Shown: positions 353-15,103 of the stretch, piece by piece
How positions within the stretch are numbered: position 1 is the stretch's first letter
Layout: each line of letters opens with the position of its first letter
Made by a program: the position numbers and the translations under genes
Assembly (NCBI GenBank): GCA_003557545.1
Contig: PWOD01000131.1
Coordinates: 1-15,103 of the forward strand
Direction of reading: 5' to 3'
Length of the DNA: 15,103 nt
From: a bacterium
Lineage (GTDB): Bacteria > T1Sed10-126
Notes under the pieces: model-generated
Database searches by the model: none
What the model was told of the DNA's origin: nothing
Seen by the model: only the letters and a program-made list of their open reading frames with translations

Positions 353-955
353 AGGGTTTCATCCTCCCTTTGACCAAATAAAATGTGCAAATTATGAACT
401 CCATAGATAGAACTTTGAGCCTACTCACCCGTCCACCAGAATTAAACTAATCCGCCAGCGTTTTTTTAATTCCTTCACCCGCACACATAAAATACTACAT
501 TAAACTGGTAAAATCAAGCTTTTTTATAGTTAAAAAACAGCTTTTTGAAGAACATAGATGATTTTAAATTGAACTGCTTATCAGAATACTGATTTATTAA
601 TTTATACCTCATTTTTTGATTATTAAACGAACCTATAAACTTTCTGGTCTAGTACAAAAAACTATCTTTTATGTCAGTTTTATTCCCTAACTAATGTGGG
701 TTAGGATGATTTCACAACCCCTCTTCCTAAACTTTTAGGGAAACTATTTGACTACTTATATTATCGACATTATGACGAATAAAAAAACTGTAAGATTAGA
801 AAATTTCACCGACCTGTACCTGGCATATATTCAGTTTAGATAGGTTTGGGCCCGGTTCTTTTTAATTAATCTGGAAAAATAGTTTTCTAAGTTAAGCTCT
901 GTGCGACTGTTTGTCAGATAACTTTAAGGATAAGTCACCATTATTGAAGATCTGG
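353..955. other. About 600 bases without a recognisable gene
   Basis: No convincing ORF is seen. The stretch holds the beta-propeller promoter and an imperfect dyad at 517-542 (AGCTTTTTTA / TTAAAAAACAGCT). It also holds two small hairpins at about 687-707 (CCTAAC / GTTAGG) and 725-742 (CCTAAA / TTTAGG). None is followed by a T-run on a strand that would make it a clear terminator for the rsmF pieces. The rest is AT-rich and unremarkable. Confidence 0.5.
489..517 (-). promoter_or_regulatory. Putative sigma-A promoter of the beta-propeller gene
   Basis: On the minus strand TTGATT (512-517) is followed after exactly 17 nt by TATTTT (489-494). This would start transcription near 482, about 130 nt ahead of the TTG start codon. 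Each box matches consensus at 4 of 6 positions, so this is moderate evidence in AT-rich DNA. Confidence 0.35.
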
Positions 956-2770: not shown

Positions 2771-4666
2771 ATGCAGTTAACAGAGAGCTTGATTCGTGAA
2801 AATTTTGATTTGATCCCCGAACTATTCGATCTTTTTAAGCAGGCTCCCCGGGTAAGCTTGGCCTGTTCAATTGAGGATCTTTACAACAGCTGTCTTCCTC
2901 CGGACGAAGATGGCTGGTTTGACGTCTCCTATGAAGTTGATGGTAAATCCGTTGTAGAAGCCCAGGTTTGTCGGGTTAAGAATGGAATAGCCGCCAACTA
3001 TACTGAACCCTACATGAGACGGCGCGATCCTGAATGTATGTATATTGGTGATCAGCTACCGACTGATAAAAAACGTTATGAAGAATACTGGGAAGAGGAT
3101 TTTGATCAGCTACGACAGGATAGTTTCAACTGGCTGGCTCAACAGAAATTATTGGTTTTTCCATTTATGGCCGGAGATTCCCGGTGTGGCATACCATCAC
3201 TTGCTGTTGCTCCGGATAATGCCGGTTTTTTCGCCTTCGGACTGGGCCTACTACAGGGTATGGTAGATATCAGGGAATTTGCCGGAAAATTTTCTCCCCG
3301 CACTTACCTGTTTGTAGCCCCGCCATACCGGCACACCCATTTTTCTGGGAAACAGGTTGTAGTTCATAATCGAACTGAAAAAAATCATGAAATCTTTAGC
3401 TATAATCTCTATCCGGGACCCAGTGCTAAAAAAGGTGTTTATGGTGCTTTGCTCCACTTTGGTGAGATAGAGGGCTGGGTTACCACCCATGCTTCCGTAG
3501 TTAGAACCCGTACACCCTACAACAACAAAATAACCATTATGCATGAAGGGGCCAGCGGGGGTGGAAAAAGTGAAATAAACGAGCATCTACACCGTGCAGT
3601 TGACGGGTCGATTGAACTCGGTCGTAACATTGTTACCGGGAAAAAACATAATCTGGTACTTCCAAGGACCAATCAGTTGATGCCCGTAGCTGACGATATG
3701 GTTCTCTGCCACCCAGATATTCAAAAAGCCAATGGAAAGTTAGGAGTGCTGGATGCCGAAGCGGGCTGGTTTATAAGAGTTGACCATATAGATAGTTATG
3801 GAACTGATCCTGATATTGAGGCCCGGGCAGTTCATCCCGAGTTACCCCTGTTATTCTTAAACATTGATGCCCATCCAAACAGCACAGCTTTACTCTGGGA
3901 ACATATTGAGGATGAACCCGGAAAAAGTTGTCCTAATCCAAGATTTATTTTGCCCCGCCAGATTGTCCCTGAAATTATTGATCAACCGCTCCAGGTGGAT
4001 GTTAGAAGTTTTGGAGTCCGCACTCCTCCCTGTACTGCAGAAAATCCAAGTTATGGGATTTTAGGGATGTTTCACCTGCTACCTCCGGCTCTCGCCTGGA
4101 TCTGGCGATTAGTTTCTCCACGTGGCTATGCTAATCCCAGCATTGTTGATACCGACGGTATCAGTGCTGAGGGTGTAGGCTCTTACTGGCCCTTTGCTAC
4201 TGGTAAGATGGTTCCCCAGGCCAATCTCCTGCTGGAACAGTTCATGACTACTCCGGAAGTTCTTAATCTGCTCTGTCCGGTCAAACATATCGGTGCGTGG
4301 GAGGTTGGTTTTATGGCCGAATGGATTATGCGGGAGTATATTCCCCGGCGTGGTGGAAAACTTGAACGGGAAGAACTTCGCGAAGCTCGCTCCAGTCTAC
4401 TCGGTTATTCTCTTCGGGAGCTAGTTGTGGAAGGGATTCAGATCGATTACAAACTGCTCAACGTTGAAAACCAGCCGGAAGTTGGAATTGAGGCTTATGA
4501 CACGGGCGCAGCAATTCTTGAACAGTTCTTTGCTCAGCAGCTAAAACAGTTTTTGACAGACGATTTAAATCAAACGGGCCGGAAAATAATCGAATGTTTT
4601 CTGGATGGTGGAACTGTCGAGGACTATGAACAGTTGATCCCCTGTTCCAATCTAGGAAACTCCTGA
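2771..4666 (+). CDS. DUF4914 family protein with HPr-kinase/PEPCK-like P-loop
   Basis: A 631-residue cytosolic protein that I recognise as DUF4914, a family of about this length with no established role. Around residues 259-268 it has [10 protein letters not shown], a Walker-A loop of the special form found in HPr kinase (GxSGxGKSE) and PEP carboxykinase rather than ordinary ATPases. About 45 residues later, [13 protein letters not shown] resembles the VADD element after the HPr-kinase P-loop. ATP- or PPi-dependent phosphotransfer is therefore plausible, but that is inference. AGGAG lies 12 nt before ATG 2771. No signal peptide or membrane segment is seen. It appears to be a single-gene transcription unit, with a promoter upstream and a possible small RNA gene directly downstream. 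Confidence 0.8.
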
Positions 4667-5844: not shown

Positions 5845-6906
5845 TCACAAAATATGTCGGAGACGGAATGAACCCCCGGGATTTTCTGCTATTGGCCGGT
5901 TGAGTCGTGCAAGCCGCCTCCGGACACAGCCGGCACACTGGCTGGCTTTTTCATCAACACAGGGTTTTCCGGGATATAGCTGGTAATCCTTACGATAGCT
6001 TTTTGGGGTTAAATTCGGCATGAAAACGTTGCCGCCTCGCTGTAATACAAGATCCCGCCCGTGAGGGTCAATTGCGTCAAATGCGGTGGTCGCCGGGATA
6101 TGTGCTAGCGGATTCAAAATTCGTAAAATTGCGAGAGTATTATAATAGGTCGATTTATTTAAAAGAAGTGATGGGCGACCTGACAGCGGCGTCTGTGGGG
6201 CTCTTAAAAATGGTCCGCACCCGATCATATCGAGAGATAGAGCGCTGGTAAGGAGAATATCATCAGCAAGGGTTGAGGGGCTGGAACCCGGCAAACCTAT
6301 CAAAAAACCACTTCCTGTCTGCAGACCTGCCGCACGAATATCCAGCAGTGCCTGCAGCCGTTCTTCCAGCGTAATATCCGGGTGGAGACTATTAAATAAT
6401 TTTTGATCTGAACTTTCGAACCTTAACAAGTAACGATCGCAACCGGCGTCGGCAAACTGTCGATAAACCGCCGCCGGATAGACTCCACAGGAGAGGGTAA
6501 TCGCCAGATCTGTTGTTTGTTTTATCCGGGTTATCAGTCGACAGATACTATCAGGAGAATATGGTGCTGGTTCTCCTGACTGTAAAACTACGGTTCGATA
6601 GCCATATTCTCGAGCTTGCAAGCTTAATTTATAAACCTGCTCTAGCGGAATCTTGTACCGTTTAACGGTATGATTATCAGCTCTAATTCCACAATAAAAA
6701 CAGTTTTGGCCGCAATAGTTGGAAAACTCAATTATCCCCCGGAGATGGACCTCATCTCCCAGATGCCGGTGGCAGATTCGGGCCGCCAGCCTGTATAGAG
6801 ATTCTGAGTCGATCTCATTACGGTTTAAAATAGAAACAATCTTCGATTTTATCCGAGCGGAATATTTATTTTTGAGTTTATCTAATTCTTTACTGATTGT
6901 TGACAT
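5845..6906 (-). CDS. hydE: [FeFe]-hydrogenase H-cluster maturase HydE (radical SAM)
   Basis: HydE is the radical SAM enzyme that, with HydG and HydF, builds the 2Fe subcluster of [FeFe]-hydrogenase in the cytosol. The 353 residues match the family length. The radical SAM cluster motif CGQNCFYCG gives Cys65, Cys69 and Cys72 in CX3CX2C spacing. The second, non-essential cluster site of HydE is also kept near the C-terminus: Cys316, Cys324 and Cys327 (CX7CX2C), as in the Thermotoga enzyme. The ATG start at 6906 has AAGGGAG 13 nt upstream, a rather long spacing, with no better start in frame. Neither hydG nor hydF nor a hydrogenase gene is in the window. An unrecognised gene lies upstream with a gap of about 50 nt. 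Confidence 0.9.
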   Translation of the reverse strand: MSTISKELDKLKNKYSARIKSKIVSILNRNEIDSESLYRLAARICHRHLGDEVHLRGIIEFSNYCGQNCFYCGIRADNHTVKRYKIPLEQVYKLSLQAREYGYRTVVLQSGEPAPYSPDSICRLITRIKQTTDLAITLSCGVYPAAVYRQFADAGCDRYLLRFESSDQKLFNSLHPDITLEERLQALLDIRAAGLQTGSGFLIGLPGSSPSTLADDILLTSALSLDMIGCGPFLRAPQTPLSGRPSLLLNKSTYYNTLAILRILNPLAHIPATTAFDAIDPHGRDLVLQRGGNVFMPNLTPKSYRKDYQLYPGKPCVDEKASQCAGCVRRRLARLNRPIAENPGGSFRLRHIL

Positions 6907-8044: not shown

Positions 8045-8096
8045 AATAATGGGCACTGGCGGATAGATCGATAAAATAAAGTCTGGAGGGAAGATA

Positions 8097-8498
8097 ATGA
8101 ATCGAACTGGAGCCTGTCAGCGGTCAGAAGAAGAATGGCGGCAAGTACTGTCGTAGGAAGAATTTGAAGTTTTGATAAAGGGGGAAACTGAGGAACCTTA
8201 TACCGGCGAATACTGTCATTTTAATGAGGATGGTATCTATCTTTGTGCCGGTTGTGGTAATCAGCTGTTTTCCTCTGAAGATAAATTTGATCCCGGTTCA
8301 GGCTGGCCAAGTTTTCATCAGACAATTGATCCTGGAAGGATTGAGCAAAAAGATGAAAAAACAGATGAGGATTCAAAAATTGAGGTTGTGTGTGCTAACT
8401 GTCACGGTCATCTGGGACATCTTTTTGGTGAAGGAGCAAGCCCGGAAGATAGACGTTACTGTATTAATTCAGCAGCCCTAAAATTTCAACCAGTATAA
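8097..8498 (+). CDS. msrB: Peptide methionine-(R)-S-oxide reductase MsrB with in-frame amber codon at position 20 (possible pseudogene)
   Basis: MsrB reduces methionine-R-sulfoxide in oxidised proteins. ATG 8097 has a strong GGAGGG site six nt upstream. The frame reads 19 residues (ending EEEWRQVLS), then TAG at 8154-8156, then continues as EEFEVL with GETEEPYTGEY to the end. Both sides match MsrB, whose members usually have W+..L+.EE at this point, so the UAG sits inside a conserved helix. All key residues follow: zinc Cys50, Cys53, Cys99 and Cys102, GSGWPSF, and catalytic Cys122 in RYCINSAALKF. Total length with the UAG codon is 133, normal for the family. A short product could start at TTG 8172, with AGGAAG upstream. 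Nonsense mutation, sequence error, suppression or pyrrolysine decoding are the options. Confidence 0.8.
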
Positions 8499-8527: not shown

Positions 8528-9712
8528 TCAGTCCTCCGCAAGACTATCAAAATACCCTTTTATATGGACTATTGGAGTCCCTTTGTCACCGCTTCCACTG
8601 ACCAGATCTGACAGGCTTCCCAACAGATCGGTGAGCTGTCTGGGAGTTGTTCCCTGGGCCTCTTCAGAGCCTACAAGATCGTGCTGTTTCTTACCGATTT
8701 TACCCCGTATTTCATCCATCAGCTTATCGCCCTTGAGATCAGCATACTGGTGATCGGCCAGGTATTTAATTTTAATCTCATTCGGTGTACCTTCCAATCC
8801 CGCGCTATATCCCGGAGAAACGGTTGGATCTGCCAGTTCCCAGATGCCACCAACCGGATCTTTGAAAGCACCGTCGGCAAAGACCATTACCTGAATCTTT
8901 GTCCCCGAACGCTGTTCAATTGCTTTTTGAAGATCGACAACAAATTTATCACAATCCCGGGGAAACAGTTTGAGAGTCTCCGGACCGGCTTTATTAGACC
9001 CCAGAAGTCCGTATTCAGGATTATAGCCCTGAACTTCCGCTTTTTTTTCAGTGCAGAGATCATCCAAACCAAAAACTGTTCGAGCCCCGGCAGTTTTTAA
9101 CCGCCGCTTAGTTTTGTGTCTGGTATGAATATCTGCTACCAGAACATCTTCTGTATAGTTAAGAATCGTGCAGGGATCGTTTGAAAAAACTATTTCCAGC
9201 TCACAATCCCCGGCCATTTCCCGGTAAAGATCAACATAGTTTATTCCGGTAAATGGGTGACGATAATCAGAAAAATGTTGTCTGTACTCCTCCTCTGAAA
9301 AACTGTCAGAATGAGGATTAATCTCTAGATCAAGAAGTTTTTCAGAGGGTAAGATAGGATTGCCAACCTCGTCATCTGGATAATTTAACTGGAGATAAAT
9401 CTTTTTGCCAGCCCGGGCGATTCCTTTCAAAATCAACGAAAACCGGTTACGGCTCAGTATCGGAAAAACAACCCCCAGGGGACCTGGAAATTTGGCTTTG
9501 ATTTCATGGGCCACATCATCGAGTTTAACATAATTTCCCCGGGCCCTCGCAACTAAAGATTCCGTAATGCTGAGAACATCAGTCCTCTCCAGTTGGAAAT
9601 TGTCCTCTGTTTGAGCTTTTTCTAATGATTCCACAATGATCTTTATCAGATTATCTCCCTGTTTGATAATTGGGGTTCTAATTCCCCGGACATGGGTGCC
9701 TGTGGAGCGCAT
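8528..9712 (-). CDS. CofE-like protein (coenzyme F420-0:L-glutamate ligase family)
   Basis: The N-terminal half reads like CofE: GIRTPIIKQGDNLIKII (10-26), then DVLSITESLVARARGNYV (45-62). A later block ADGAFKDPVGGIWELADP (279-296) fits the family's metal/GTP-binding region. CofE adds glutamate to F420-0 using GTP. This protein has 394 residues, much longer than archaeal CofE (about 250), as in the long versions found in Firmicutes. No other F420 gene is in the window and most Firmicutes lack F420, so another amide-ligase substrate is quite possible. The start is secure: GGAGG six nt before ATG 9712. It lies 45 nt after the mgtC-like gene on the same strand and ends 29 nt from convergent msrB. 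Confidence 0.75.
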   Translation of the reverse strand: MRSTGTHVRGIRTPIIKQGDNLIKIIVESLEKAQTEDNFQLERTDVLSITESLVARARGNYVKLDDVAHEIKAKFPGPLGVVFPILSRNRFSLILKGIARAGKKIYLQLNYPDDEVGNPILPSEKLLDLEINPHSDSFSEEEYRQHFSDYRHPFTGINYVDLYREMAGDCELEIVFSNDPCTILNYTEDVLVADIHTRHKTKRRLKTAGARTVFGLDDLCTEKKAEVQGYNPEYGLLGSNKAGPETLKLFPRDCDKFVVDLQKAIEQRSGTKIQVMVFADGAFKDPVGGIWELADPTVSPGYSAGLEGTPNEIKIKYLADHQYADLKGDKLMDEIRGKIGKKQHDLVGSEEAQGTTPRQLTDLLGSLSDLVSGSGDKGTPIVHIKGYFDSLAED

Positions 9713-13038: not shown

Positions 13039-14154
13039 TCATTGAGCCTGTAAGTTGAGCGGCGAAGCAAAATAGCTGCGAGTAGCCAGTGATAGTCGGA
13101 CAAGCAAAAGCATTATCGGTACTTCAATAAGCACACCAACAACCGCCGCCAGTGCCGCCGGGGAACCGGCACCAAACAACATGATAGCCACGGCTAAAGC
13201 CACTTCAAAATGATTGGAAGCTCCGATCATTGCCGCGGGAGCCGCATCTTGATAAACAATACCCAACAGTTTTGCAGCAAAATAAGCTATAAAAAAGATC
13301 GACAGCGTCTGTAGCAACAGAGGGATAGCTATCATAAAAATATTTAACGGTAACCGAACTATTTCTTCGGCTTCTAAAGTAAAAATAAAAGTCAGGGTAA
13401 GAAGCAGAGCAACTGTCGAGACGTTGTCTAATTTAGGCAAAAAAACTTTTTTAAACCAGCCTTCCCCTCGATATTTAATCAATAGCTGACGGGTCAGATA
13501 ACCTGTAACAAGTGGCAACCCAATATAAATTCCCACCGAAAAAGCCAGATAGCCCAGGGGAATTGCCTCCCCTACGCCAGCCGTCATTTCAACCACGCGC
13601 GGAACACCGACAACTCCCAGCAATAGTATTCCGAGAGGCGCATAGAGAAACAGCATACTCAGTGAATTTATTGCGACCATGATTAATGTATAACCCATGT
13701 TACCTTCTGCCAGGTAACTCCAGACTAAAACCATTGCGGTGCAGGGGGCGATCCCCAGTAAAATCATTCCGGCCATATAACCGTAGGCAACCTCTGTTTC
13801 CAACCACGGCCCCCACAGATGACGCATAAACAGCCAGGCCCAGAACGCCATAGTAAAGGGTTTGATTGCCCAATTAACCACCAGAGTTAAAAGTACCGGC
13901 CGGGGACGTTTGGTGGCATTAACTATTTCGCTAAATTTAATCTGAACCATTATTGGATAGATCATAAAGAACAGCAAAATGGCAATCGGTAGGTTAACGT
14001 CACGAATCTCATAATCGATAGCATCTGCAAATTGAGGAAAACCCAGGCCGATCAGAGTCCCGGTAAGAATGCAAAGAATAACCCAAACGGTCAAATAGCG
14101 TTCAAAAAAACTTAACTCGCGAATGGTTTCAGATGAATTTTCCTGGTTATCCAT
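13039..14154 (-). CDS. acr3: ACR3-type arsenite efflux transporter
   Basis: A 371-residue inner-membrane protein with ten predicted membrane segments that expels As(III) using the proton-motive force. ACR3 hallmarks are seen: GIAPCTAMVLVW with the conserved Cys (Cys138) and GASNHFEVALAVAI with the conserved Glu (Glu317), corresponding to Cys129 and Glu305 of the Alkaliphilus protein. Length is typical (about 350-400). ATG 14154 has GGAGGG 11 nt upstream. It is the first gene after a consensus promoter and a large dyad, and the permease and thioredoxin genes follow. No arsR, arsC or arsA is in the window. Confidence 0.95.
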   Translation of the reverse strand: MDNQENSSETIRELSFFERYLTVWVILCILTGTLIGLGFPQFADAIDYEIRDVNLPIAILLFFMIYPIMVQIKFSEIVNATKRPRPVLLTLVVNWAIKPFTMAFWAWLFMRHLWGPWLETEVAYGYMAGMILLGIAPCTAMVLVWSYLAEGNMGYTLIMVAINSLSMLFLYAPLGILLLGVVGVPRVVEMTAGVGEAIPLGYLAFSVGIYIGLPLVTGYLTRQLLIKYRGEGWFKKVFLPKLDNVSTVALLLTLTFIFTLEAEEIVRLPLNIFMIAIPLLLQTLSIFFIAYFAAKLLGIVYQDAAPAAMIGASNHFEVALAVAIMLFGAGSPAALAAVVGVLIEVPIMLLLVRLSLATRSYFASPLNLQAQ

Positions 14155-14802: not shown

Positions 14803-15103
14803 TTACTCATTCCCCTCCTGATAATAATCAAATAGCTCACCATAAACCCCTTCTAAAAGCGGATCGGCATCAGCCATCAATTCAGTCACATAACTTTCTT
14901 GAGCATTAGCCGCAGAATAAAAAATCTCCTCTTGAAAAATTCCAACGAATTGATTTGAAACGCTAATGCCGACCAGTAGACCAATCAATAGACTTGCAGC
15001 CGCAGCCAGTGGAAACCGCTCAGTAAACCGATCAACCAATTTAACCTGGTTGACCTTACTTATTGTTTTTGAGGAAAAATCGGTTGGAATAGAAGGTACT
15101 GGA
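14803..15103 (-). CDS. Partial membrane protein, possible anti-sigma factor (5' end beyond window)
   Basis: The frame is open to the right edge, giving 99 visible residues. The TTG at 15039 is probably internal, since the upstream text (PVPSIPTDFSSKTISKVNQVK) continues without a stop. One membrane segment is seen (about FPLAAAASLLIGLLVGISVSN), after a basic, cytosolic-looking N-terminal part. An acidic extracytoplasmic tail ends in EGVYGELFDYYQEGNE. This layout, directly before a Spy/metal-sensor gene, is typical of anti-sigma factors paired with an ECF sigma factor. The zinc-finger part, if any, would be outside the window, so this call is inferred from context. Confidence 0.5.
   Translation of the reverse strand, partial: PVPSIPTDFSSKTISKVNQVKLVDRFTERFPLAAAASLLIGLLVGISVSNQFVGIFQEEIFYSAANAQESYVTELMADADPLLEGVYGELFDYYQEGNE

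Follow-up and report, generated by a model that had tools for sequence, protein, structure and literature searches.

The peptide-methionine (R)-S-oxide reductase gene (msrB) in the window, as we call the whole 15,103-nucleotide stretch of DNA analysed here, which is an entire contig of the assembly, is interrupted at its codon 20 by an in-frame TAG. This UAG is very probably a plain stop codon, and the interruption a consensus error or else a nonsense mutation that arose recently in a divergent, dispensable paralogue. Only one substitution is needed to make a stop of codon 20; such a change would fall in the spare msrB of the genome, leaving the main MsrB intact beside msrA. Three observations together point to ordinary error or recent inactivation: machinery for decoding UAG was not detected in the genome, a second msrB copy is intact, and single stops of another kind break genes elsewhere in the assembly.

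Structure of the interrupted msrB frame

The features of the msrB region are given in Table 1. The frame runs from an ATG to a TAA at 8496–8498 with a single TAG inside it and no frameshift, so that a continuous reading frame is absent. The preliminary description had placed the ATG, the TAG and a GGAGGG site correctly, and its complete MsrB domain, with four zinc-binding cysteines and the catalytic one, was confirmed by profiles and by an alignment of 110 homologues. The read-through protein is one MsrB/SelR domain (residues 18–132 in the PF01641 profile search), and its match to TIGR00357 extends over residues 9–132; the part after the TAG alone scores 131.7 bits, the curated cut-off of this model being 113.05 bits. 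Homology to MsrB is found on both sides of the TAG, and the genome-wide profile search itself flagged '1 TAG' inside the gene. Alignments of homologous ORFs span the TAG in 104 cases, which puts the reading as an interrupted gene far beyond chance. The window copy shares with the MsrB/SelR family the whole domain, two zinc CxxC pairs, the catalytic Cys in RYCINS, and the GWPSF and HLGH motifs, but differs from it in the in-frame TAG and in substitutions at S66, D87 and R94. The solved structure nearest to it by score is 2k8d.

Table 1. Positions of features in and around the interrupted msrB of the window
Feature	Position	Strand	Evidence
GGAGGG, likely ribosome-binding site for ATG 8097	8085..8090	+	sequence
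Interrupted msrB (peptide-methionine (R)-S-oxide reductase), the redundant one of the two genome copies	8097..8498	+	TIGR00357 145.6 bits, PF01641 1e-42, read through
19 codons 5' of the stop, MNRTGACQRSEEEWRQVLS; resembling the family from about codon 9 on	8097..8153	+	alignment: intact paralogue KSEEEWRTELS, 110 homologues
In-frame TAG, codon 20; Glu in intact paralogue, mostly Pro in homologues	8154..8156	+	sequence, alignments
AGGAAG, weak ribosome-site-like, before TTG 8172; putative	8155..8160	+	sequence
ORF of 108 aa from TTG, a possible restart; lacks the N-terminal helices; use of this start inferred	8172..8498	+	127 bits, TIGR00357
First CxxC, zinc site (C50, C53)	8244..8255	+	sequence, 110-homologue alignment
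Second CxxC, zinc site (C99, C102)	8391..8402	+	sequence, 110-homologue alignment
Codon of the catalytic Cys, C122, in RYCINS; residue invariant among the 110 homologues	8460..8462	+	sequence, alignment

Other parts of that description need revision. It had placed the UAG inside a conserved helix. In a predicted model of the read-through protein (mean pLDDT 88.8), the second of two short N-terminal helices (11–17 and 20–26) does begin at the TAG, but the column is not a conserved one: the 110 homologues carry P in 60%, E in 12%, K in 8% and A in 7%. The position of the TAG is therefore not strongly constrained, codon 20 being both variable and non-catalytic. The promoter reported there does not rise above chance, with three sites in the region against 2.4 expected by shuffling.

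A second msrB and other interrupted genes

An intact msrB lies elsewhere in the genome (G000:C97, 5466–5852), and the gene that follows it reads as msrA (GCFWC motif). With the same family model it scores 183.1 bits and the window copy 144.4. The presence of this more canonical copy beside msrA makes the window copy redundant; the two are only about half identical, and thus do not represent a recent duplication. The window copy also departs from the family at columns that are at least 95% conserved (S66P, D87E and R94K), so that the earlier statement that nothing else in the gene is degraded was too strong, although the zinc and catalytic cysteines are kept. These are the most departures among the 111 MsrBs compared, and the intact copy has none; the 110 homologues of this set are not a random sample, since most were collected for their resemblance to the window copy. 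Redundancy and relaxed constraint, as looked for in a pseudogene or nonsense mutant, are thus both found here, although the departures could instead reflect a changed subfamily. A search of genome contigs yielded no sister strain, the MsrB relatives having at most 53% identity.

Our scan for coding sequence flanking one stop covered 1.10 Mb, about half the genome, and each case was then read. Besides msrB, three interrupted genes were left after this reading. The first is folP (dihydropteroate synthase; L178, G000:C129, 6439–7281, minus strand), in which an in-frame TAA near 6820 interrupts an otherwise complete 326-bit match. This is the only folP copy that profile searches found in the genome; in the relative G001 the gene is uninterrupted and scores 334 bits. 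Its cluster here, with neighbours that we take from their sequences to be tilS-like, hpt-like and cdaA-like, is otherwise intact. Folate synthesis normally requires dihydropteroate synthase, so the stop in folP is more likely to be a consensus error than a fixed mutation, and the breaking of a single-copy folP by TAA speaks for a recent change or a sequence error rather than for a cause peculiar to UAG. The second is an RND efflux permease gene (L244, G000:C183, 6451–9861, plus strand), in which the one TAA, at 8800, lies within an unbroken ACR_tran match (6–1007), and the third is a giant Flg_new_2 (InlB B-like) repeat frame (L217, G000:C214, minus strand), which fills a whole 16 kb contig and contains a TAG at 13380 and a TAA at 14850. 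In two of the three the only stop is TAA, a pattern that a mechanism acting on UAG alone would not explain.

The first scan gave nine pairs of same-frame segments separated by a stop, five of them by TAG. This apparent excess of amber codons disappeared on reading: in four of the five the TAG separates two ordinary adjacent genes (such as a murA-like gene followed by a flagellar rod gene, and an rsmI-like gene followed by a Sua5-like gene), and the fifth is the repeat protein. Likewise, a candidate TGA on L189 turned out to separate two V-ATPase genes, and a candidate TAA on L194 to separate a gene for S-adenosylmethionine synthetase from one that is histidyl-tRNA synthetase-like; the TGA at L178:16316, with no more than a weak domain match, was left out of the count. 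A stricter version of the scan gave one case only, and a homologue-based interruption scan of 50 kb added only a multiply broken gene on L236 (G000:C193, about 516–897, minus strand). This last gene, a homologue of an ORF beside msrB in L092, has four in-frame stops (TAA and TGA) and, from its sequence, looks decayed.

The window msrB has in common with nonsense-interrupted genes and consensus errors of draft assemblies a single substitution to a stop in an otherwise intact frame, and the occurrence of different stops in several genes; nothing sets it apart from them. Searches of the literature found no work on false stops in metagenome assemblies and nothing of use on MsrB pseudogenes. As to how this base arose, we lean to an error in the consensus of a draft assembly that is fragmented, to which we would give roughly an even chance; a genuine nonsense mutation, recent and in a gene whose constraint has relaxed, is somewhat less probable, at rather under one chance in two.

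Possible restart, read-through and decoding of UAG

Against a plain stop stand the retention of the zinc and catalytic cysteines and the lack of a frameshift, as one would also expect if read-through or a restart kept the gene in use. The best of these alternatives, though an improbable one, is that the TAG is real and that a restart, or an independent start, at TTG 8172 yields a 108-residue MsrB lacking the N-terminal helices. The shortened ORF retains every zinc and catalytic Cys and still exceeds the TIGR00357 cut-off, and solved chains of the mammalian-type MsrB1 match from residue 41 onwards only, so that an MsrB core without this N-terminal part does exist. However, at least 16 open codons precede the residue after the TAG in all 110 homologues, none of which is forced to start there; L18, T31 and E32, near the TAG, are invariant or nearly so; and the putative start combines a weak ribosome-site match with TTG.

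A natural amber suppressor tRNA, or strongly leaky read-through, giving some full-length MsrB is very unlikely. The downstream frame is intact and the genome incomplete, as such a reading allows, but none of the 40 tRNAs detected in the genome (by covariance model, with the DNA read by ARAGORN) has the anticodon CUA. The tRNA-Tyr gene is also missing from the detected set, which must therefore be incomplete, and a gap in the assembly could hide a suppressor tRNA. However, an amber suppressor would not rescue the folP and RND genes, interrupted as they are by TAA.

According to PMC3941956, a cell that uses pyrrolysine needs the enzymes for its biosynthesis, a synthetase specific to it and an amber suppressor tRNA. 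Profile searches of the genome (2.15 Mb in 239 contigs, 91.9% complete) gave at best 19.9 bits for PylS (cut-off 178.15) and 18.5 bits for PylD (cut-off 150), and no family match for MttB, whereas in each search one control genome passed the cut-off, named in the MttB search as Methanosarcina acetivorans. A tRNA-Pyl anticodon-arm pattern gave one match with three mismatches, the same number as in the reversed control. The radical SAM gene of the window is HydE, with 295 bits to that family and 112 to PylB. RF1 (prfA) is present above its cut-off, apparently split over two contig ends, and TAG terminates about a fifth (115 of 553) of the coding-like ORFs that end inside a contig. It also terminates two genes of the window, those for the cupredoxin and the Spy-like protein, where its use as a terminal stop had been seen before.

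The window msrB thus resembles pyrrolysine-decoding genes, such as mttB with its in-frame UAG, in having coding sequence in frame on both sides of the codon, but it differs from them in that searches for PylS, PylD, a pylT-like sequence and an amber tRNA detected none, UAG terminates, TAA breaks other genes in the same way, and the position is variable and non-catalytic. Pyrrolysine at codon 20, which had been raised in the preliminary description, can hardly be entertained, and pyrrolysine and suppression taken together account for only a very small share of the probability. Of the three explanations offered there, recent change and sequence error remain, whereas for read-through by pyl genes or a suppressor tRNA no such gene was found in these searches of the 91.9% complete genome. 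Scarcely credible, too, is the broader idea that this bacterium of a little-sampled phylum tolerates in-frame stops (the TAG of msrB, the TAAs of folP and the RND permease) by unusually leaky termination that leaves some full-length protein.

Lineage of the contig and significance of the TAG

The earlier appeal to pyrrolysine had drawn on its use by some Halanaerobiales (Acetohalobium); the premise that the organism belongs there finds no support. In the collection its phylum is represented by two genomes only, and the other one (G001) belongs to the same family and has no msrB. Many species of Halanaerobiales would be expected in a genome collection, so a phylum with two genomes does not fit that order, and the organism is not evidently a member of it. 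The contig itself belongs to this lineage, because an F420-ligase-like gene of the window (8528–9712) is 68% identical to one in G001, whose neighbours there match the window genes at 956–1330 and 1408–2364; in G001 these genes lie close together with no msrB between them. The F420-ligase-like gene (minus strand) encodes 394 amino acids with a full F420_ligase Pfam match, yet scores 45.9 bits against a CofE cut-off of 274, and its product may belong to a different ligase-like family. The window also encodes a DUF4914 protein (2771–4666, plus strand; 956 bits to PF16260) with a P-loop-like stretch.

Leakiness of stop codons here would, if true, matter far more, but nothing found points to it. 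The TAG in the window msrB changes no ideas on the genetic code, and the phenomenon is an ordinary one. When a draft genome shows an amber codon in frame, the other stop codons, the tRNAs and the paralogues should be compared before recoding is proposed.
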